Assembly (NCBI GenBank): GCA_004764695.1
Contig: SMSO01000014.1
Coordinates: forward strand, 6,562,029 to 6,626,028
DNA: 64,000 nucleotides
Direction of reading: 5' to 3'
Origin: Schizochytrium sp. TIO01
Taxonomy: Eukaryota; Sar; Bigyra; Thraustochytrida; Thraustochytriidae
In this document: in pieces, positions 5,497 through 45,009 of the stretch
Position numbering within the stretch: the first letter of the stretch is position 1
Layout of the letters: the number at the start of each line of letters is the position of its first letter
Notes under the pieces: generated by a model
Seen by the model: the letters and a program-made list of their open reading frames with translations, nothing else
Told to the model about the DNA's origin: nothing
Databases searched by the model: none
Position numbers and translations under genes: made by a program

Positions 5497-6486
5497 TCAC
5501 CGCCTCAGCTGCTCGTCGAAGTCGATGTCTGGTACGAAGCTTGGGGGCGCCGGGTAAGAGTGCTTGATTTTTGGCGTAAAGATAGGCTCCCCCGTAAATG
5601 TACGAGAAACACTTAGGCGCATAGATAAACGCTCCCAGTGGTTGCCTCTTAGGCGCCACAACTTCCCTGCTTTATCTTTGAGGCCCCATGCTCGCTGCTT
5701 TGCAGTTTGCTTGCGCCTGACCTCCTCCTCAATCTCTCTTTTCTCAGCTTTGACCCCCGCGAAAAACTTTCGTAGTCTTTTGCTTTTTTCATTCTTAGGA
5801 ACACTGGGGCTATTGATGCTGTCGCTCATATCCTCGGCCTGTTCAAAAGTGGGCTTGACACTGTCAATTTCAGCCTGGGTCAAGCGCATATGCCCGGGGA
5901 GTTTGCTTTGAACGCGTTCTACGACCTCTGCAGAGTTACCATCATTGGTAATGGCAGAGATAGCAACGAGTTCTAGGATTTCTTTTTGCGTCATATCAGT
6001 TGGCGGATGCACAAGAAATGTTGCTGCAGCCGCAACCTGAGCTTCCTCATATGTCATGCCAAATTTTTCCTTATAAAGAAACGGAGCACCATATCTCAAA
6101 GTTTCTAGCATTTCATACGTTTCTTCACCTTCATCCCCATCTCCTTTTATGAGAGCATTGTAGACTTCGCAATTTTCTCTGTCTTTTTTTGATTCCCAAA
6201 GGCAAAGGAACACACGTGAAAGGCCAAAGCGCTCAAGACTTTTGTTACACCTGTTGAGGTTTTGACGATACTTCTGCTCAAGATTGTACCAATTGAAGCT
6301 ATTCTTACCCTCTTTTTCTGCTTGTAAGACTGATTGATTTCGTTGCGTTGCATGTGTTCCACCAAATGAACATCCTGGACAAGTTACAAAGCCTTTAATA
6401 TGGAACTGCAAGCCTGCTCTCATATCTCGCTTCTTAATAACTTTTTTATGGAGAGCTTTTTCAAGCTCAGGCCTTATATCACCCAT
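5497..6486 (-). CDS. CxGC family protein, copy 1 (unknown function)
   Basis: First of three paralogues (others at 8253-9260 and 13433-14458). The first in-frame ATG at 6486 gives 329 aa beginning MGDIRPELEK, which lines up with MGARLSRAYA of copy 2. The frame stays open upstream to a TAG near 6590 with no further ATG, so an upstream exon is possible. Shared features in order: a helix ending in (D/E)xRAG followed by a CPGC motif (about residues 36-39); RVFLCLW; YEMLETLRYGAPF; EEAQVAAAA; a helical stretch; then the strongest block, WGLKDKAGKLWRLR...WERLSMRLSVSR...GEPIFTPKIK...FVPDIDF, up to the C-terminus. There is no signal peptide or membrane segment. The CxGC pair suggests metal or disulfide chemistry, but that is inference. 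I know no named family with this set of motifs. Confidence 0.85.
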   Translation of the reverse strand: MGDIRPELEKALHKKVIKKRDMRAGLQFHIKGFVTCPGCSFGGTHATQRNQSVLQAEKEGKNSFNWYNLEQKYRQNLNRCNKSLERFGLSRVFLCLWESKKDRENCEVYNALIKGDGDEGEETYEMLETLRYGAPFLYKEKFGMTYEEAQVAAAATFLVHPPTDMTQKEILELVAISAITNDGNSAEVVERVQSKLPGHMRLTQAEIDSVKPTFEQAEDMSDSINSPSVPKNEKSKRLRKFFAGVKAEKREIEEEVRRKQTAKQRAWGLKDKAGKLWRLRGNHWERLSMRLSVSRTFTGEPIFTPKIKHSYPAPPSFVPDIDFDEQLRR

Positions 6487-8252: not shown

Positions 8253-9260
8253 TCACCGGGTTTGGTGGTATCTGGGATGATCTCGATGCCAGTGGGTGCC
8301 TTTAAGCTGTTGCTCAAAATCGATCTCTGGAACAAAGCCTGGCTCCCCTGGATGGGTGTTTTTGATTTTAGGTGTAAAAAGGGGCTCTCCATTTGCCAAG
8401 CGAGACATGCTGTATCGAACAGATAGGCGCTCCCAACGATTACTACGAAGACGCCATAATTTGCCAAATTTATCACGGATACCCCATGCCTTTTGCTGAC
8501 GTGTTTGTAGGCGCTCTACTTCCTCGTTAATTTTGGGGGAAGGTAAGGGCCGATTGTTAAAGAAAGCCTCCACGGTACTACGCTTATCACTTATGTCAGT
8601 GTTTTCCGCAATGGCCTGGCCAAGGTTTTCAGCCCTTGTGAATTTCTCACGAAGTTCATCCATCTTATCTTCTGGGATACGCAGACCTTCGGGCAGTTTT
8701 TCCTGTACCTGATCAAGAACTTCGGCAGAATTTCCTTCGTTTGTAATTGCTGCAATCAAGATTAACTCTTCGACTTGATCAGAATTAAGATCAGGAATAT
8801 CAGCAGAGTACAGAGCAGCCGCTGCTGCGACTTGAGCCTCTTCAATAGTTAAATTCTCATTCGTAAGTTGAAAGGGCGCGCCATATCTCCATGCTTCAAG
8901 CATATCGAAAGTTTCTTTATCTTTCGCAAGCAGATTGTATGCACGGCACTTCTGAAAGCTTCCCTCATGACCCCAGTAGCACAGAAAGGTTCGTCGAATG
9001 CCGTAAGGCTCAATGTGTTCATTCAACTTCTGAAGGCTCTGACGGTATTCTAACTCGCGAACATGCCAAAACAAGGCCTCGTCTCCTTTTGCTGATTTAA
9101 CCCGATTTCGAGCTGCAAGATGTTGTCCACTCAAGCACCCAAGGCACGCAGACGTAGATCCTATGTAATATGTAAACCCTGCCCGCAGCTCATCTCTGGT
9201 AATCTCCCCATCTGCATATGCCCGGGATAGGCGTGCACCCATTTGATACCCTTCGGCCAT
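8253..9260 (-). CDS. CxGC family protein, copy 2 (unknown function)
   Basis: 335 aa from ATG 9260 (MAEGYQMGARLSR). It aligns with copies 1 and 3 over its whole length: DELRAGFTYY before the cysteine motif CLGC (residues 39-42), RTFLCYWGHE, FDMLEAWRYGAPF, EEAQVAAAAALY, then WGIRDKFGKLWRLR...WERLSVRYSMSR...GEPLFTPKIK...FVPEIDFEQQL. Unlike the others it ends with an extra His/Arg-rich tail (GTHWHRDHPRYHQTR). It contains an intact start codon and no intron, which makes it the best model for the N-terminus of the family. No known domain recognised. It is in the same orientation as its two paralogues and the acyltransferase gene between copies 2 and 3, consistent with dispersed local duplication. 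Confidence 0.87.
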   Translation of the reverse strand: MAEGYQMGARLSRAYADGEITRDELRAGFTYYIGSTSACLGCLSGQHLAARNRVKSAKGDEALFWHVRELEYRQSLQKLNEHIEPYGIRRTFLCYWGHEGSFQKCRAYNLLAKDKETFDMLEAWRYGAPFQLTNENLTIEEAQVAAAAALYSADIPDLNSDQVEELILIAAITNEGNSAEVLDQVQEKLPEGLRIPEDKMDELREKFTRAENLGQAIAENTDISDKRSTVEAFFNNRPLPSPKINEEVERLQTRQQKAWGIRDKFGKLWRLRSNRWERLSVRYSMSRLANGEPLFTPKIKNTHPGEPGFVPEIDFEQQLKGTHWHRDHPRYHQTR

Positions 9261-13432: not shown

Positions 13433-14458
13433 CTAGCGAAGGAATCGCTTTTCGAAGTCAATGTCAGGAACAAACTGAGGCGCCTCAAACCGGTGTACAT
13501 CCTTGATCTTAGGGGTGAAAAGCGGTTCACCGTTGAAAGCACGGCTTACGCTGAAGCGCATTGACAGCCTCTCCCAACGGCTTGGCTCACCACGCAGACG
13601 CCAAGTCTTGCCACCGCGGTCCTTAAAACCCCAGCGCTGCTGAAATTTGCTTTGGTGCTCGGTCACCTCCTTACGAAGCTCCTCTGCATGGTCTTCCTGA
13701 TAGCGTTGGTGTAAAACACTGATCTGTTCGTGGAGAACTTCGAAAGGAAGAACTCCACCTTGAGCTGCTAGCTCCTCGGTGGCTTGGAAGATATCCCGCA
13801 TTTCATCAACCCGGTACGCCGGTATACGAAGATACTCGGGGAGCCTAGTTTCGAGACCTTTCAATTTAGCAGAGGTGTCGTCAGGGTTGGCGACGGCAAC
13901 CATGGCAATAAGCTTTTCAGCTTCGTCGATGAGCTTCTCATCATCGACATCACTAGCATGCACATACAAGAAAGCAGCAGCTGCGATTTGCCTCTCCTCA
14001 AAAGTGAAGTCTTCAAGGTTGTCAACTTCAAGAAGGTGAAAAGGCGCACCAAAGCGCAATTCCTGAAGCATCTCATAAGTAGCTTCATCGGCAAGCATGT
14101 TGTAGATCCGTACCTCTTCAAAGGACTCATCGCTTTCACTAAAGTAGCACAAGAATGTACGCTTGATGCCAAAGGGCTCTAGGCGGTCGTTGAGGTCTTC
14201 AAGGTAGTGGCGGTACTCACCCTCAAGCGTGTACCATTCGGGTTTTTCCTCGATAAGGGCCCTACGAGCCTCCTGGTGTTCGCCACTCTTGCATCCAGCA
14301 CACAAGCTAGAACTTGTGATGAAAAACTGAAGACCTTCACGCATTTCATCATCTGAGACGTCCCTCAGTGCCTCAAGTTGGCTCAAGCGCACATCAACGA
14401 CCTCGTCTGCCAAAGACTTCATGAAGCCGCCATCGCTTGATCCGCTGGTGCTGGACAT
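13433..14458 (-). CDS. CxGC family protein, copy 3 (unknown function)
   Basis: 341 aa from ATG 14458 (MSSTSGSSDG). It has a longer N-terminus than copies 1 and 2, then the same order of motifs: MREGLQFFITSSSLCAGC (C53, C56), RTFLCYFSE, YEMLQELRFGAPFHL, EERQIAAAAFLY, and the C-terminal block WGFKDRGGKTWRLR...RWERLSMRFSVSR...GEPLFTPKIK...FVPDIDFEKRF. The middle region is more acidic than in the other two. Codon use is more GC-rich than in copies 1 and 2 (many GCC, AAG and GAG codons), which in this window goes with well-expressed genes such as the bL12m gene; this copy may be the ancestral or most expressed one (inference). Function unknown. Confidence 0.88.
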   Translation of the reverse strand: MSSTSGSSDGGFMKSLADEVVDVRLSQLEALRDVSDDEMREGLQFFITSSSLCAGCKSGEHQEARRALIEEKPEWYTLEGEYRHYLEDLNDRLEPFGIKRTFLCYFSESDESFEEVRIYNMLADEATYEMLQELRFGAPFHLLEVDNLEDFTFEERQIAAAAFLYVHASDVDDEKLIDEAEKLIAMVAVANPDDTSAKLKGLETRLPEYLRIPAYRVDEMRDIFQATEELAAQGGVLPFEVLHEQISVLHQRYQEDHAEELRKEVTEHQSKFQQRWGFKDRGGKTWRLRGEPSRWERLSMRFSVSRAFNGEPLFTPKIKDVHRFEAPQFVPDIDFEKRFLR

Positions 14459-19888: not shown

Positions 19889-22780
19889 ATGGACTTCAGG
19901 ACCTGCAACGCGAACCAGGAGGACCCGCTGCACTACGTTGCTAGTCTTGCTGAGAGGCTGCGAGGGGTGATGAACGATATAGAAGTATTTTCTGTGCGCT
20001 CCTCAAAGCTTTGCAATCTAGTTCAGCTAGTCTCTGAAAGACTTCAAGACTTATGTGAAGCAGAAACTCTAAGACAAGAACTTGAAGAGATCTTGCAAGG
20101 CTTGCTGAGACGCTTATCTCAAATTGTTGCTATAGAGGGCATAGACTGGAGAGATAACCAGCCAGAACTAGCTTTTATCATTCAATACGTCAAGTCATGC
20201 CAATACTTTGAGGAAATCTACATATCTCATGAGAGATTAGCCAGGATTGTGACACCACTCCTACAGAACGAAGGAAATACTCTAGATACAATCATTGTTA
20301 CCATGGATGACGATCATGAAGACTACAGTCAGGATTCTACATATTTCTCAAATGCCATTGTTGCAGCCAGGAGAAATTTCCCTGCCCTCCAAGATGAATT
20401 CATTGGTTTACAAACATTTGGCAAAAACGTGAACGACTTTGGAAGAGATCTAACGCAAAGACACATCCGTTTGCTACGGGCCACGTCTAAGATTTTGAGC
20501 AAGCTTGCATTTATAATTGCGCCATATGTGGCAACTGATTGTAATCCAGGAGGTCTTAGCTTTGAAAGAAGCAGAGATGTTCCTATGCAAGGCAGCTTTG
20601 GATTTGCGATCTCTTCTGTATGGCGTGGCCAATATGTGGTCCTTCGAAAGACCCAACCACAACATCCATTGATGAACGATCTTGATTTGCTCTATGCAGC
20701 TCAATCTTGGCAGGTAATTCGACATCCAAATATTGTGCAGCTTTATGGCACCTGCATTCTCGAAAACAATGTTAATCTTATCACAGAGAGGTGCCATCAA
20801 AGTCTTCAAAATTTACTCTATAACTGCAATGCAAGCCTTTCTCTCGATCAGGAGGACACAATAATCAAAGGCATCGTGCGTGGCCTGAAACATTTGCATA
20901 GTCTATATATAGTGCATGGAAACATTCAGCCAGAAAGTGTTCTTCTTGTGGATGGGTCGAACGGAAATATTAAGCTTACCGATATCGGTATTGCGCCCGC
21001 AAAATTAACGGACAAGACATACCGGTATGCTGCCCCAGAGCTCTACAGTTCGCCATTGCGCTGGTCTCGAGCTTCAGACATCTTCTCACTAGGAATTCTC
21101 TGCTGGGAAATCAAGGAATGTCAGCCTCCGTGGGGAGCAGAAAACAGAAACGTGATACAGAATCATGTATTGAAAAACCGCAGGCCGCAATTTGGCCACG
21201 ACACAGAATGGAAGTCTCATTTTCAGGAGCTGGTTACCAAAATGTGGGCTTCTGAGGCTACCAGTCGACCAACTGCAAAAACGATCTTCGATTGTGTTTC
21301 TAGCAATATAAAAAATCGAAGATCCTCACGGGTACTGGCGGGCATCTTGTTGAGTCATCGGCGCTCACCCGAACACCGAAAGTCAGGGAAAGAGACAGCT
21401 AGATGGTCTATTTCTACATTTGAAGAAGACGAGAATTTGGAAAATGAGCTTGATTCTCCCCAGCGTATACATGCAAGTCATACCGAGAGACCAGTCATGG
21501 AAATTACTAACGGGCAAGAAACATTCTCGATGTATGAGACAGAAGAACGCCTATTTGATAACTACGATGAGAACTACGGTGAGAACTCTGTTACCTCATT
21601 TCAAACTCCAAGCCTTAGAGAAGAGGCCAACTATAGAAATGAGGAAGGGTTAAGACCCTCTCAGGTTTCTCATGATGGGCTGAGTGAAACTAGCACGCGC
21701 TCATCTTTGGTAAATAATCAAGACCAATGGAATAAAATTTGTTCAATTTTGTCGCAACTTCGACTAGATAGCTGTGCTCCCCTCCTTGAACAAGCAGAAC
21801 TCACGACATTTGCCAGTTTTGCTGATTGTTCTGCGCAAGACTTGAAAGAGTATGGTTTTCATAAATTTTCAGACCGTGTGGCGTTTCTCTCCGCTGTTCA
21901 GGGCAATGAAGCATCTCATAGTTCCTCTGAGGATGATTCTTATGATGATGATGATGATTTCGATTCAGATATTCAAAATGAAGAAAGGTATGACGAGTTG
22001 CATTATCTCTTTCCATCGATCACTGATATGGAGACTGATAAGGAGCTTCAAGAATTAACAGAGCTCCTATCCACCATTCATCAAGAACATCATGCGAGAG
22101 AGATATATAGAGAATCAGGTTCCCTCCAAGAATGTAGGAATCTGACTCACCAGCAGCTTCGCACTATTGGAATACGAAACTTCGCAGATCGCCACTCCAT
22201 TCTCACAACTCTTTCGCAAAGTGAGTTCACAACGGACGATGACCTAACTCTTGAGGACTTTCTCTCAAGTATTAATATGTCCATGTACACCCGACAGCTT
22301 CAACAGCATGGTTATCGTAAGATTTCTGATTGCAAAAGACTTGCCTTTTGCGATGATGATTCACCTGAAGTCGAAAGCATCTCACTTGAAGATCGCAGTC
22401 GCATTGTTTTAGCTGCGAAGGAACACAGACTGCCTGCAGAACGTCCCCCGATTGTCATCGGAAGCTTTGTAAAACTCAATGCTTGTCATTCTAGAATTCC
22501 ATTCCATCATACAGGCGAGGTAATTCACATCGAAGAGCCTGGCCGTGCCATCTTGGTCAAATTTGAGGTAGGGAACTCGACGCTAGAAGAATATCTTCCA
22601 CGGGAGCATCTAGTTACCACAACCAAGCCGACCTCCAGGTTTTATGCGAAACCCCTGCTTGTATGGAAAAGGTTATCTTCTTTTAGGTTTTCTCGAGACT
22701 CCTTCATAAGTAGACAAAGAAGAGGTTCTTCTAGCAATGTTAGTTTTGTTAGAGATCGTTCATGGGACGACGACTACTAG
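19889..22780 (+). CDS. Pseudokinase with N-terminal helical region, three SAM-like modules and an SH3-like domain
   Basis: 963 aa from the first ATG at 19889; the frame opens at a TTG 33 bases earlier. Residues about 15-215 are helical and resemble the bundle that precedes TKL-type kinase domains, with an RSSKLCNLVQLVSERL helix. Residues about 231-475 are a kinase fold: GSFG glycine loop, K254 in VVLRK, AAPELY at the APE position, and DIFSLGILCWE. The catalytic HRDLKPEN is HGNIQPES (D to N, K to Q, N to S), and DFG is DIG, so catalysis is probably lost. Three SAM-like modules follow at about 613-672, 722-778 and 787-846, separated by acidic linkers, then a small beta-rich SH3-like domain at about 856-911 (GSFVKL...GEVIHIEE...LVKFEV). 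It is a tandem paralogue of the next gene. A scaffold or oligomer-forming signalling protein is inferred; partners are unknown. Confidence 0.88.
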   Translation: MDFRTCNANQEDPLHYVASLAERLRGVMNDIEVFSVRSSKLCNLVQLVSERLQDLCEAETLRQELEEILQGLLRRLSQIVAIEGIDWRDNQPELAFIIQYVKSCQYFEEIYISHERLARIVTPLLQNEGNTLDTIIVTMDDDHEDYSQDSTYFSNAIVAARRNFPALQDEFIGLQTFGKNVNDFGRDLTQRHIRLLRATSKILSKLAFIIAPYVATDCNPGGLSFERSRDVPMQGSFGFAISSVWRGQYVVLRKTQPQHPLMNDLDLLYAAQSWQVIRHPNIVQLYGTCILENNVNLITERCHQSLQNLLYNCNASLSLDQEDTIIKGIVRGLKHLHSLYIVHGNIQPESVLLVDGSNGNIKLTDIGIAPAKLTDKTYRYAAPELYSSPLRWSRASDIFSLGILCWEIKECQPPWGAENRNVIQNHVLKNRRPQFGHDTEWKSHFQELVTKMWASEATSRPTAKTIFDCVSSNIKNRRSSRVLAGILLSHRRSPEHRKSGKETARWSISTFEEDENLENELDSPQRIHASHTERPVMEITNGQETFSMYETEERLFDNYDENYGENSVTSFQTPSLREEANYRNEEGLRPSQVSHDGLSETSTRSSLVNNQDQWNKICSILSQLRLDSCAPLLEQAELTTFASFADCSAQDLKEYGFHKFSDRVAFLSAVQGNEASHSSSEDDSYDDDDDFDSDIQNEERYDELHYLFPSITDMETDKELQELTELLSTIHQEHHAREIYRESGSLQECRNLTHQQLRTIGIRNFADRHSILTTLSQSEFTTDDDLTLEDFLSSINMSMYTRQLQQHGYRKISDCKRLAFCDDDSPEVESISLEDRSRIVLAAKEHRLPAERPPIVIGSFVKLNACHSRIPFHHTGEVIHIEEPGRAILVKFEVGNSTLEEYLPREHLVTTTKPTSRFYAKPLLVWKRLSSFRFSRDSFISRQRRGSSSNVSFVRDRSWDDDY

Positions 22781-23217
22781 TAGTAAATTTTTAACAATTT
22801 CATTACACATGGTAGGTAGGTTTACCTAATAGTAGTGCGTTTACTTCGAGAGCGCCTAGGCCTGGTTATTAAGTTCCTATTAATAGACAATACTCGTTAA
22901 GTTGCCAAGGACACTTTAGGTACCTGGTATTATTAGGTAATTGTTCAATACTTCGGATACACCTAGTACCACCTATTACCAGCTAGGAAGGTAGGTAGCA
23001 CCCCTTGGAAAGTAAAATTTCTTGGAAACCAGAACCCAATCGATCCCGATTGAGTTTAGTACGGCTGATCCTTCTCAGCCTAGGGCTTGCTGTAGGCCAA
23101 GGCTTCCACTGTAGCCACCGAAGAGCCAAAACCCTCGCAACGTCGACGAGCCTTCAGGTGAGAGCGTCCTAGTAGTGGGCAAGTCCTTAAAATTGTGCTC
23201 AGCACGTGCACGCGACG
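22781..23217. other. Spacer between the two pseudokinase genes
   Basis: 437 bases holding the 3' end of the first gene and the promoter of the second. Very rich in GGTAGGTAGG, CCTAGTACC and CTAGTAG words (22795-23000), the densest patch of these in the window. No gene. Confidence 0.5.
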
Positions 23218-26200
23218 ATGCGGAACGCAGACGGACTTGATGCCCCACTAGGTCGACTTTTGGAGGCCCTCAAGACTTGCCAAGTTTCCCGTATTCGAGT
23301 TTCAAGGTTGTCAAAACTTGTAGAGGTGATATGTCGTGGACGGGATGGTGGGGGGCAAGATCTGGACCTTCCGACTAGCCTGAAAGGACGACTTTACCAA
23401 CTTATAGAAATCATTTGTGCGTATGTACGGGATATGCCGATACGCTTACGCGAGGTAGAATTCGTGCTGCAGTATCTGGCTTTCCAAGAGCGAATTGAAG
23501 AGCTCACAAGAATTGAAGTGGAGCTCTATGAGTTATGGTGCAGTTTTGTACTTTGCACATCGCTTGAATCAAATCTGGATGTGATGGCAATTTATCAACA
23601 TCCAGCAAAATGTACTTTCCATAAGAAGAATAGTAATGTACGAGGAGAAGAATTGGATATCCCTGGTGCTAAGAGTGATGCCATGACCAGTTCAGATGAA
23701 GACGATGCTGATGAAAGCGATTGTGTTGAAACACATGAAAAACTCGAACCTATGATGTCAGTTGATGACAGCATTATTGCTGTCCAAGCAAAAATTGAGA
23801 GTGATCATACGATTGACCAGAGCCGCGATTTTGAGGGCCTAAAGTTAGCATTGCGCAGGATTCATCTGGATATCGAATGCATTCATCCCCTTGACCTTGA
23901 TGAATTTTCTGGCACAGAGGACAGCGGCGACACTGAACAAGTGAGGGCACATGAATTCATTCGAGATGTTTTCCCTTTGATCATGCAGGAATACAATAAA
24001 GCAGACAGCTCTCTTGATGTTTCTCCTTCTTCTTTAGAGATGGATGACGTAGAGATGAACTTGTCGAATTTAGTGGTGGGTACATTTAGTGGCATCTGGT
24101 CTGGTCAACAGGTTGAGGTAAGCTGTGGGCCAGTCTTAGTCCGAGAGGAATTTTTAGATATATATTTAAGAGAGCTATATCATGCTCGTACGTGGAAGCA
24201 CCTATCACACCGGAATATTCAGACTCTTCTCGGGGGATGCGTACTTGACACACGAGTTCTTTGGATCACCGAGCAAGGCGACCGCACTCTCGCCGATGTT
24301 CTAGAAGACACCAACATAACTTTGAATTCGGACCAGGAGGAAACAATTATGAAAGGTGTCGCTCGCGGTCTCGTGTATCTTCACGAACAAGGACTTTTGT
24401 GTAATACCTTGAGTCCTGGCACAGTAACTCTGTCAGACCACCTACGATCAAACGTGAAGATCAAATTTACCACACAAAACAAAACACAGTTTCTTCAAAC
24501 GCACCCTATCAATACTGCACCTGAGGTTTTGATTGACCAAAGCACAGGCTGGAGCACAAAAAGTGATGCGTTCGCTTTCGGAATTCTATGTTGGCAGATT
24601 AAGGAGCGAGCCAGCCCTTGGTTTTATCTCGATGAGACAGACATACGTTTAGCAATCACGAACGGCGAGCGTCCCGCCTTCGGCAGGGACACCCCTTGGA
24701 AGCCACGACTTCAACATATGATTGAGGCTTTATGGGAGCAAGAGCCCTCCAGCCGCCCTGAAGTGGCACTTGCGTTACGCAGTCTTGAGGAACGAGTTCG
24801 TGATCGACGTTCAACTCGAGTGATGAAATCCTTGTTGCGGGTATATTGGCGCTCATCCCAAGACACAAGAGACGAAAGGGGGATCATTCTTGGGCTTTTA
24901 AGCCATGTTGGAATGGACAAGTATGCCTCTCTTCTCTTCGAAAACAACTTCAGAAGCCTGAAAAGTGCAGGAGTCTTACACACGGGGATCTTTGTGGTCT
25001 TGGTGTACCCTTTGCCTCAGACCGAGACAAGATCATATGTGTTCTGAGTGAGGAGGCATTCATTCAATCTGAGTCACAACGTTTCGCCTCTCTCCGAAAA
25101 GAGTCACAAAATCGTTTCAGCGCAGCGCATTATCAAGATTATGGGAGTGGTATTGAAAATACCGAATATAGCACTGAGAGCCACCTAGGGGCAGGCGTGA
25201 ATCATCTGGAGGATTCAACAAATTCATCTTCAGATAATCAATCTGAAACTACCTGTGAAAATGATGATGATGAGGAATCTTGCTCATCGGAAGAACAAGG
25301 AGCGAATGCAATAAGACAAATTCTACAAGAACTAGGACTTGAGGATTTTCTGCAACAGCTGATGGATGCAGGTCTAAATACTGTAACAAGCTGTAGAAAT
25401 GCTTCAGAGTACGATTTAGAGGCCGCCGGGGTAGAGTCAAGTGAGATAAGAGATCTACTACTAGATGCTTTCCAGACGCGGGGACTTGATGGTTCTGATG
25501 ATGGAGGAATTTCACTCCCTAGTTTCTCTAGTGAGTCAGAAAGTGAAGAGAAAGCAACCAGCAAACTTGAAAAGCTCATGGGCGCGATTGGAAGTGAAAG
25601 ATACTACCCAAGTCTTGTAACTCAAGGATTCTACTCTATTCGACGATGCAAGAAGCTCACGTCTGCAGATCTTGCTCGCATCGGAGTTGAGTCTGGTGAT
25701 CGCTCACAATTGCTCGACCTCTTCAAGTATTACAACTCCTCATTAGAAAGATCTGCAAAAACGTTACATTCAATTCGACAAAAAGCTGTCAAAGGAAGAA
25801 AAAAACGCCAGCATCGTGCTCGCCGCAAGCGCCATGAGCGCGAGCTTATTGCATGTGTGAGCAAAGCCAACTTGAATAGCATGGTTGAGTCTGTTCTTAG
25901 CGATCTCGGAATGGAGAGAGCTTCAACCAAGATTATAAAGTCAGGATTCAATATCAAGTCGGTCTTGCGCCGAGAGCCTTCAGATCTCTACAATGCGGGT
26001 ATTAAGAAGGAATTTCGCGAAATTATTTTTGACGCCCTCGAAACAATGGCTGAGCAACAGCTATACGAATACCAACGAGAGAGAAGGCGTCAAGCTAGAA
26101 GCAGAACTCCAACTACTGCTGTTGAGTCGAGATCGGTAGATGAGGCTGATGAATTCGATGACATTACAATGGAAAGCAATTTAGATTTTGACAGTATGGT

Positions 26201-27149
26201 GGATCTCCTTAGATCTTTGGCACCACGCACATCTGCCACAGCCTGGGAAGAGTTTCTGGTACCCCTTGCTAGACAATACAGCACATTAGATGACCTTCGC
26301 AATTTAGAAAATTATGATCTGACAAACATTGGCATATCAGATCCTGCCTGCAGAAGAGAAATACTGCATGTTCTTGGCAACCTTAATGAAGAAGAACTTA
26401 GGCGAATTCGTTCAGGATGGCGGCGTAGATCTCAGTTACCAGAGAATATTGAGGAAGATGATGCAGTCATTGAAAAGGTCCTCAAGTCTATTCATAGGCA
26501 GTCTCTTTCGCCAACCATTATTGCGCGCTTTGGAACAGTTCGTAGGTGTAAGGGTCTGACTCACAGAGACCTTCAAGAGATTGGAATGGATCGGTATCGT
26601 GACCGAGACCGAGTCATATCTGCATTTCGCCATTACAGCAGGAGCCCAACCCAAAGGAAACAGCGCTCTGGCTCGCTTGAATCTACGACGTCTGAAGAGA
26701 GCAATGAAGATTCGCTATTCACGATGCTGCATAGTCTTTCAATGGATAAGTATCATCGAAATCTTGCCCGCCACGGTTTTGACACACTGCACAAATGCAA
26801 AAAGCTGAGCTTAAGTGACTTAAAATCATGTGGAATTCCAGCTGATGAGAACAGTCAAAAGCTACTGAACGCGTTAAAGCTTGCTGCATCCCAGACTGAG
26901 CTAGATGAGAAACAGTATACAGGCAATGACTCTCATTCGAGCGAAGATTTGGATCTGGGCCCCTTTTCTCAACCTCGAGCAAGCATGAACAGATTATCCT
27001 CACGCATTAAGAGTCGTTCACCACTTAGTGGCTCTCAAGAGCAGGCTGTTGTAGCGAGGAAAAAATCGCTCGCGTTTCGAAGCAGTCGATTTCGTCGGTT
27101 GCCTTCACTAAATTTTGTTCGAATGTTGAAAATTAATAGTGACCAGTAA
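23218..27149 (+). CDS. Pseudokinase with seven SAM-like modules, interrupted by a one-base frameshift
   Basis: Two overlapping frames, 23218-25047 and one entered at about 24961 and ending at 27149, make one protein of about 1310 aa. The first frame begins at ATG 23218 (MRNADGLDAPL) and holds an N-terminal helical region like that of the previous gene and a fully degenerate kinase domain: HRDLKPEN is replaced by CNTLSPGT, and DFG by TTQ, while APEVL and DAFAFGILCWQ remain. The first SAM module starts near residue 555 and its second half is in the other frame; a shift of one base at the AAAA run 24961-24964 restores the SLKKCRSLTHGDL pattern seen in sister modules (RRCKKLTSADL, RRCKGLTHRDL). 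Further modules lie at about 697-753, 782-839, 886-943, 989-1056, 1082-1140 and 1164-1223. A Lys/Arg-rich stretch separates modules 3 and 4. The break may be a sequencing error, true decay or programmed shifting. Confidence 0.85.
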
Positions 27150-42423: not shown

Positions 42424-43158
42424 ATGGCGGAACATTTAGCGCAAGATGCAGTTGGCGGGCCAGACAGGACTCTCTCGTCTAGAGTATTGCAACTAAGGCT
42501 TGATGAAGGAGATGATGAGGATGAAGATCATGACGAAGGCGAGTTTGATGACCTTGTAAATAATGAAGAGGAGAGCGACGAAGACGATGAGGTGTTTCTC
42601 GATGTTCCCCAGGTTAGCAGGGATAAGTTGCTCATCCCTCCGCTCAATTTTGCGATTGTGGCTAAAGGTGTTTTCAGAAGTGGATATCCGAATGCTAAGA
42701 ACTTTTCGTTCATCAAGCATTTGCAAATACGTACTATGATCTGCCTTTCAGCGGAGGAAGCAGGCGAGTTGAAAATTGGCGAGGAAAACCGCGAGTTTAT
42801 CGACGCAAACGGTATTCGACTTGTGCGATTTCCGCTTGAAGGCCAAAAGGAGCCGTTTAGTCAAATGGACCTTGGCAAGATACGCAGTGCATTACGAGAA
42901 ATCTTGGATGTGCGGAATCACCCGGTGCTCATTCATTGTGATAAGGGAAAACATCGCACAGGAACTTTGGTAGGATGTCTCAGGAAACTCCAGGGCTATG
43001 CTTTGAGCGGCATCTTCCAAGAGTACTTGAGGTTCTGTAAGCAGAGCGTGCGCCTTCTCGATCACCAGCTGATCGAGTTCTTCACTATGGAATTCACCCC
43101 AGAAGAGTGCATGTTTTTACCATCCTGGCTTCCTGCAGATCAAAAGGTCCGCATGTAG
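42424..43158 (+). CDS. Siw14/PFA-DSP-type phosphatase
   Basis: 244 aa from ATG 42424. The first 60 residues are strongly acidic (DEGDDEDEDHDEGE...). The phosphatase domain follows: PPLNFAIVAKGVFRSGYPN at the start, IRTMICLSAEE, LVRFPLEGQKEPF, and the P-loop HCDKGKHRTGTLVGC with nucleophile C172 and R178. The opening PPLNFA..V..G.FRSGYP and the KGKHRTG P-loop are hallmarks of the plant-and-fungal atypical dual-specificity phosphatases; the yeast member Siw14 cleaves the 5-beta phosphate of inositol pyrophosphates such as 5-InsP7. The basic P-loop residues fit a highly phosphorylated substrate. The C-terminus, EFTPEECMFLPSWLP, looks complete. It converges with the selenoprotein gene. Confidence 0.92.
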   Translation: MAEHLAQDAVGGPDRTLSSRVLQLRLDEGDDEDEDHDEGEFDDLVNNEEESDEDDEVFLDVPQVSRDKLLIPPLNFAIVAKGVFRSGYPNAKNFSFIKHLQIRTMICLSAEEAGELKIGEENREFIDANGIRLVRFPLEGQKEPFSQMDLGKIRSALREILDVRNHPVLIHCDKGKHRTGTLVGCLRKLQGYALSGIFQEYLRFCKQSVRLLDHQLIEFFTMEFTPEECMFLPSWLPADQKVRM

Positions 43159-43712
43159 TATGCACATTTCCTCATTCTCTAGTAAACTTGTATTATAATT
43201 TTGTTTCGTTTCATCGCTTTAGTCATTCATATGATTTGTAAAGATGTCCTTCAAGCTTTTAGTAATTCTTTGGTTTATAGAAACTAACAAAACAAAACCC
43301 AAGTGTGTCTACTAAGTACATCCTCAGGGTAATGTACAAAATTTAAAAAAAATTACTTTTCTTCATATCAAGCTCTAATTCAAGAGACTGAAGATAGATT
43401 CATTAAGAATAAAACGCAAATCGAGAGCGTGAAGCAGGCTTATATTGAAACTGGCAAACGATGTAAGAAATCATGCTCTGGAAACCCGTTTTCAGCAAGT
43501 GAAGCTGCCTGATATGCATTTTGCCTCATTACGTCATCATGGGTAAGCCCAGCATTGCACGCACATTTGCTTATTTTTCGGGTTTGGAATTACTGCATCT
43601 ATGTGCACCGCGAATAGAATGTGTTTATAAAATAGAAGTCTTGAATTTACTTTTTGCACCTCCCTGCTTTTCGTGAACTTCATTCAGATCTTGCGCCACG
43701 AGTCATCACGTT
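43159..43712. other. Convergent 3' region; probable 3' UTR of the selenoprotein, SECIS not identified
   Basis: 554 bases between the phosphatase stop and the selenoprotein stop. A SECIS element would be expected here, read on the minus strand. I examined ATGA positions (minus-strand ATGATGAC near 43520-43530, ATGACTCGTG near 43700, ATGAATC near 43398) and could not build a convincing helix with the AA loop and GA quartet by eye. A strong hairpin (GTGCACAT...ATGTGCGTGC on the minus strand, about 43555-43610) is present but lacks the ATGA core. Confidence 0.4.
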
Positions 43713-44393
43713 TTACTCCGTGGCAGTCTTAATTTCATCCCAATTCAGACGGGGCCAACCAGGCGTGGCTTCATGAAGAGCATACAAAACATTCCCCTCT
43801 AAGGTGCATACTACAAGGCCACCTTGCATAAATGGTAGACCGACGTTTTTTTCATGTCCCTGAGCATTCACTCGCCAACCCTTGCGAAAGATAATTCCGA
43901 AAAAGGCAAAAAGACCTTGCCAGTTCTCTCGTCTACGAAGCACTAATGTACGGCCTAAGCTACTGTAGCATCCAAGAGCCAAATGAGTGTCACCACTCTC
44001 ATCAATTACAAATCGGAGGCGAATTCCATCTGCACGTGGCTGAAAAAGATTGAGCTCAGCAGCCTTGTCCTTGGCCACAAGCAAACTACCTGAACCAACT
44101 AGAACCACTGTTGTGCGCTGAGCGATCCACGGGTGCTCCAGCACCTCGCGGATTCGCTCTGCGCACATGTTTCATGCAAAGTGCCGCAGCATCACGGCAG
44201 TGATGGCCTGGTCTTGACCTTCCTCATTAGTAAAAAGTTCTCGAAATACAAGTCCCTGCCCAGTCTCCACATCGACTACCTGAAGGTCGTTGCTTAGAAC
44301 TTTGTCCATATCCACCCGAGCAGCGTACTCGGCAGCGTTTCTAGCGAGTTCTTGCTTTGACTTTGCATCCTCGCGTTCGCTCTCGAGAGCCAT
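43713..44393 (-). CDS. Predicted selenoprotein, PRXL2/AhpC-TSA_2 family (thioredoxin fold), Sec at an in-frame TGA
   Basis: One 226-residue frame from ATG 44393 to TAA at 43713, interrupted by a single in-frame TGA at 44172-44174 (residue 74). The sequence before it ends VMLRHFA and after it reads NMCAERIREVL. Relatives of the AhpC/TSA_2 group (plant PRXL2-like proteins, animal PRXL2/FAM213) have a redox motif of the type LLRHFGCxxC at this place, so the TGA falls exactly on the first cysteine, giving UxxC. Downstream family features are intact: TTVVLVGSGS, LRFVIDESGDTHLALGCY, a FFGIIFRKG helix and LPFMQGGLVVCTLEGNVLYALHE. TGA ends other genes here (for example the Nudix gene), so it is not a reassigned sense codon. 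Insertion of selenocysteine is the best explanation; family members reduce peroxides or regulate redox state. A nonsense mutation is less likely because the frame continues conserved for 152 codons. Confidence 0.82.
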
Positions 44394-45009
44394 CGTCCTA
44401 GATCAGTACTAAGTACTTCAGACCAGCAAGATCTTCCACGCTGCCCAACCTAGCAGCCCATGCTACGCCTTTGTAAGCACATATTCTGCTTCCCGGTTTT
44501 GCTTGCTCCATGGCCAGACCAACGTGTGTAAGAATGGAGCGGTCAGAAAATTGAACACTTCGTAAGTAAAAAAATGCGCGAGCATTTTTATATTAAGAGT
44601 ATTATGACAGACTAGCTATTGTAATCTTTCTCTTTAAAAATTCATAAAAAGGCACAACCTAATGGTTGCAATTTAAAACTGTACAGTGGGTCATGGCTTT
44701 CAACCTCGGTACATACCTACTACATGGTTTCATTCTGTTTTGTGAACAAGCTTTTGAACTAACAGTCGAAGTGAAAAGCAAAGTTCTCTTGAAGGAAATA
44801 TCAAAGAAGAAATGGCAGGAAGTACACAAATTATTAGAACATGGTTGCAAGAACTTTTGAGCAAAAGGCAAGACAATGCTTGAGTGCAAAATTGCCAAGA
44901 GATTGCAGATTTTACAAATCAGGTTCCTGGGTAGAAACTATATGTATAGGGCTCCCTCTAAAAAATGAAATTAATGAAGGGAAGATTCGTTATAGATTGA
45001 TTACATTCT
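44394..45009. other. Intergenic DNA upstream of the selenoprotein gene
   Basis: 616 AT-rich bases between the selenoprotein start and the end of the helicase gene. Open frames at 44659-44898 on both strands show no motif. Confidence 0.5.

Follow-up and report, generated by a model that had tools for sequence, protein, structure and literature searches.

On the minus strand of the window (the whole stretch of 64,000 nucleotides analyzed here, with a GC content of 45.7%), we identified a frame for a protein similar to the PRXL2/SelU family that is traversed by a single in-frame TGA codon and is followed, in its 3' untranslated region, by a SECIS-like element (Table 1).

Table 1. Features of the predicted selenoprotein gene and its surroundings (positions are those of the window)
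Feature	Position	Strand	Basis or remarks
Predicted SelU/PRXL2-like selenoprotein CDS, 226 aa + TAA	43713..44393	-	Single frame, coding signal on both sides, family match in both halves
In-frame TGA, codon 74; proposed Sec as the first redox residue of UxxC (U74 N M C77)	44172..44174	-	Position; Cys of LRHFGCxxC in homologues
151-aa ORF starting at ATG codon 76, lacking residue 74; expected output of a standard gene caller	43713..44168	-	
Inter-stop space from the TAA to the stop of the convergent neighbor; taken as the 3' UTR region	43159..43712	-	Neighboring ORF 42424-43158 (+)
SECIS-like element	43478..43551	-	Fold, scan, hold-out covariance model

Elsewhere, the window contains three single-exon genes (5497-6486, 8253-9260 and 13433-14458 (-)) whose products, 329-341 aa long, resemble one another, have no Pfam match and form a local unnamed gene family, as well as a run of adjoining genes on the plus strand (19889-27149) that encode protein kinase and/or SAM domains. 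Two PfaD-type PUFA-synthase domains (L148 and L149, on G000:C4 and C30, with scores of 673 and 672 bits, respectively) were detected in this eukaryotic genome, in keeping with a thraustochytrid.

The preliminary description of the locus proposed a continuous frame of 226 codons with an internal TGA, and translation of 44393-43713(-) bears this out, the TGA at 44174-44172 being the one stop codon inside it. When about 60 or more codons were required before the TGA, at least 100 after it and at least 226 in all, this pair of open stretches joined by a TGA was unique in the window across both strands and all frames. With the other long ORFs of the window as the reference, the codon-usage score of the CDS frame is 0.37 bits per codon before the TGA and 0.21 after it; the other five frames score between -0.16 and 0.16. 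The start at ATG 44393 is fixed by another in-frame TGA located 12 nt upstream. An alternative ATG at codon 76 (44168) opens the ORF of 151 aa that does not include the redox residue, and it is this fragment alone, with the catalytic residue lost, that automatic annotation would deliver. The existence of this shorter ORF, together with the weak similarity of the protein to known families, would fit a pseudogene or a remnant split into two ORFs, in which a nonsense mutation created the TGA and no product other than a truncated or a restarted one results. We consider such decay very unlikely given that the frame is clean and single, has a coding signal before as well as after the TGA and shows no further lesion, and that the TGA falls on the very residue that known SelU proteins have as Sec.

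Five of the 15 other long ORFs in the window terminate with TGA, which is thus a normal stop codon here, as had been stated from the first reading. The same count argues against near-cognate readthrough or an altered code as the way in which the TGA is passed. A small intron that would remove the codon has no room because the distances of LRHF and C77 from the TGA are those characteristic of the family; furthermore, none of these routes would account for the SECIS-like element described below, and we regard all of them taken together as extremely improbable.

The TGA stands where members of the PRXL2/SelU (AhpC-TSA_2) family have the first Cys of their redox motif, LRHFxCxxC. The protein is PRXL2/SelU-like, with a predicted UxxC replacing CxxC. 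No match above the cut-off was obtained with the curated SelU/PRXL2 profiles: AhpC-TSA_2 (PF13911) yields a weak match of 18.7 bits against a cut-off of 27, and the NCBIfam profile SelL_rel_redox (NF040769) matches weakly over residues 59-221, scoring 22.8 bits where the cut-off is 120. The scores being below the cut-offs, we refer to the protein as PRXL2/SelU-like rather than as a strict Pfam member. The NCBIfam match includes the TGA and extends across it to residue 221; the number of codons on the 3' side of the TGA is 152, as initially described.

Bacterial homologues were retrieved with a DNA pattern for LRHFGCxFC. The motif columns in the resulting alignment are invariant by construction, and because the homologues were picked by this motif, we excluded the invariance from the evidence. 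We relied instead on how the remaining parts of the sequences align, on the NCBIfam match, which involved no such selection, and on the match to human PGFS. A profile of 86 bacterial homologues from which the window protein was left out scores 12.1 bits against the full-length protein, with residue 74 placed on Cys, compared to a best score of 2.9 bits in 300 shuffles subjected to the same test. A profile that combined the window protein with 11 homologues, and accordingly is mostly bacterial in content, retrieved human PGFS/PRXL2B with an E-value of 4.6e-19, its redox Cys pair being aligned to the motif. Thus, both the bacterial Cys-containing relatives and human PGFS/PRXL2B agree with the original assignment to a PRXL2-like family that has Cys at the position of the TGA, and the proposed alignment with AhpC-TSA_2 homologues does place Cys at residue 74 in the bacterial relatives. 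In this respect, the gene conforms to what is expected of a eukaryotic selenoprotein gene, its in-frame TGA lying inside a conserved coding frame and on a redox Cys position. The PF13911 matches L004 and L005 were considered as possible paralogues and rejected, as they resemble ordinary Cys peroxiredoxins. A scan of viral contigs identified no relatives.

The AlphaFold model of the protein (pLDDT 75.5) is peroxiredoxin-like, and residue 74 directly precedes helix 75-85, the first one after strand 63-68. According to the alignment and the predicted structure, the fold is Trx/Prx-like and its first helix has the C/UxxC motif at the N-terminus. The top Foldseek matches are human PGFS (PRXL2B), followed by AhpE and AhpC. 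In the VIA-align comparison, PGFS shows a Z-score of 12.0 and 24% identity over 123 aligned residues; this identity is the highest among the matches listed, and many peroxiredoxins equal PGFS in Z-score.

The preliminary description anticipated a SECIS in the minus-strand 3' UTR, and a SECIS-like element is indeed present in this region. Its outer stem leads to an internal loop that holds the quartet ATGA (43537-43534) and then to a helix II of 10 bp; GA lies on the 3' side, and the apex carries AAAA along with a small extra hairpin, resembling the type II architecture; the full SECIS fold is found in the minimum-energy and centroid structures alike. The same components recur in the 3' UTRs of the window gene and of the genes for glutathione peroxidase (GPx) and SelT in the same genome: TGATGACG, a helix with 10-13 base pairs, an apical loop that contains AAA, and GA on the 3' side. 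The stop codon and the element are separated by 175 nt in the window gene, 231 nt in GPx and 252 nt in SelT, and the stretch from the quartet to AAA comprises 11 nt in the window gene vs 14 nt in the other two.

A hold-out covariance model, for which no elements other than those of GPx and SelT were used, with hand-shortened loops and a manually supplied structure, was run unfiltered on the window and placed 43548-43481(-) at rank 1 (17.6 bits, E-value of 0.041, 128 kb); the UTR makes up less than 0.5% of this search space. The generic SECIS shape is on its own only moderately rare, with 0.04 occurrences expected in the UTR and 41 of 1000 UTR shuffles containing it, and the folding energy is not below that of the shuffles (z of -0.58). 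A search of the genome for the pattern CACTGATGACG..AAA recovered GPx, SelT and four further sites, and no selenoprotein frame was seen upstream of those four. Rfam cmscan reported no SECIS in the whole window or, at permissive settings, in 42900-44400. Genome-wide, Rfam SECIS_1 (RF00031) detected no element at all; because this model misses the elements of GPx and SelT as well, we do not take its negative result as evidence of absence. By computation, then, the 3' UTR of the window gene appears to contain a SECIS, as expected of a eukaryotic selenoprotein gene, and the element seems to be of the same type as those of GPx and SelT.

The expectation that the organism possesses the machinery for Sec insertion proved correct. 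The genome encodes a tRNA-Sec with the anticodon TCA (70.4 bits; ARAGORN concurs), SepSecS (E-value of 7.1e-82), eEFSec at locus L017 (E-value of 4.4e-130 to eEFSec from the PDB), selenophosphate synthetase (SPS; E-value of 1.9e-81) and a PSTK-like gene that is below the cut-off (E-value of 7.9e-21). The best match to the selB family, L015, was rejected as eEFSec, its sequence reading like that of an organelle-type EF-Tu. In the GPx gene and in the SelT gene (loci L010 and L013), TGA occupies the known Sec site, namely VATTU (VATT-U-GTT) and FCTSU, respectively. The SPS domain (L023, G000:C36:4255747-4256697) lies at the C-terminus of an open frame of 647 aa without an internal stop, the N-terminal part of which is similar to pyridine-nucleotide oxidoreductases, an arrangement that resembles the NADH dehydrogenase-SPS fusions of bacteria and some protists (PMC4561486); this gene shares its contig with the tRNA-Sec gene, at a distance of about 31 kb.

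These genomic features bear on two of the alternatives. The TGA is one base away from the Cys codons, so that a sequencing or assembly error hiding a true TGC or TGT is conceivable; such an error would not, however, give the 3' UTR its SECIS-like element, and GPx and SelT show the same pattern in the same assembly, which makes this explanation highly improbable. Likewise, a SECIS-like element downstream of the gene and a genome equipped with the Sec machinery and other selenoproteins are not what would be expected if the locus were a pseudogene.

The gene product is therefore very probably a selenoprotein of the SelU/PRXL2 (AhpC-TSA_2-like) branch, with a peroxiredoxin-like fold and with UGA74 read as Sec. 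The selenocysteine reading given in the preliminary description is supported by the SECIS-like element, by the Sec machinery and by TGA at the Sec sites of GPx and SelT; Sec insertion itself, along with the substrate and the cellular role of the protein, is what we infer. The ribosome would start at ATG 44393 and meet the UGA at codon 74, where the SECIS hairpin, 175 nt past the stop codon, would recruit eEFSec and Sec-tRNA(UCA), such that Sec would be inserted at codon 74 instead of termination. U74 and C77 could then act together as a redox pair (UxxC), with peroxides or disulfides as the presumed substrates.

SelU proteins with Sec make up an ancient and widespread selenoprotein family whose biology has already been described in algae and animals, and because the family is known, the selenocysteine proposed here is less surprising. 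We can only tentatively regard as new the thraustochytrid PRXL2B/C-like Sec branch (LRHFxUxxC) in a selenoproteome that is undescribed in the literature searched, with a SECIS that has the TGATGACG core and is missed by Rfam; no description of thraustochytrid selenoproteins was found in that literature, and one could still exist. The finding is important chiefly to annotation and because it documents Sec machinery in the thraustochytrid lineage, the SECIS elements of which are overlooked by the Rfam SECIS_1 model. This PUFA-producing protist retains the Sec machinery and has three or more likely selenoproteins, and therefore selenium supply may affect its redox defense.

The bacterial AhpC-TSA_2/SelL-related proteins (NF040769) align LRHFGCxFC with the TGA and have conserved glycines in a similar order, but all those fetched contain Cys (by selection), and the identity is 17-25%. 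Human PGFS/PRXL2B (PDB 9us9 and 9usa) is the best Foldseek match of the fold, and its C44xxC47 occupies the position of U74xxC77, although PGFS is a Cys enzyme with 24% identity to the window protein. The genome's own GPx and SelT belong to unrelated families and have a quartet-to-AAA stretch that is 3 nt longer, but they share with the window gene TGA at the Sec site and a SECIS with the TGATGACG quartet region. Selenoproteins are known in other stramenopiles, including Phytophthora (PMC5330540), and Sec forms of SELENOU occur in fish, birds, invertebrates, green algae, diatoms and haptophytes (PMC2375036, PMC3473315, PMC7539508): there are two Sec-containing SelU genes in the diatom Thalassiosira and one in Ostreococcus (PMC2375036), and such forms are present in over half of 36 algal genomes (PMC7539508), in all three SelU subfamilies in invertebrates (PMC3473315) and in SelU1 only in vertebrates (PMC3316567). 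Whereas the window protein, with its LRHFxUxxC motif, is nearer to PRXL2B (LRRFGC) and to the bacterial proteins (LRHFGC), it resembles SELENOU in its Prx-like2/AhpC-TSA_2 type, in the predicted Sec at the redox position and in the predicted SECIS located in the 3' UTR.
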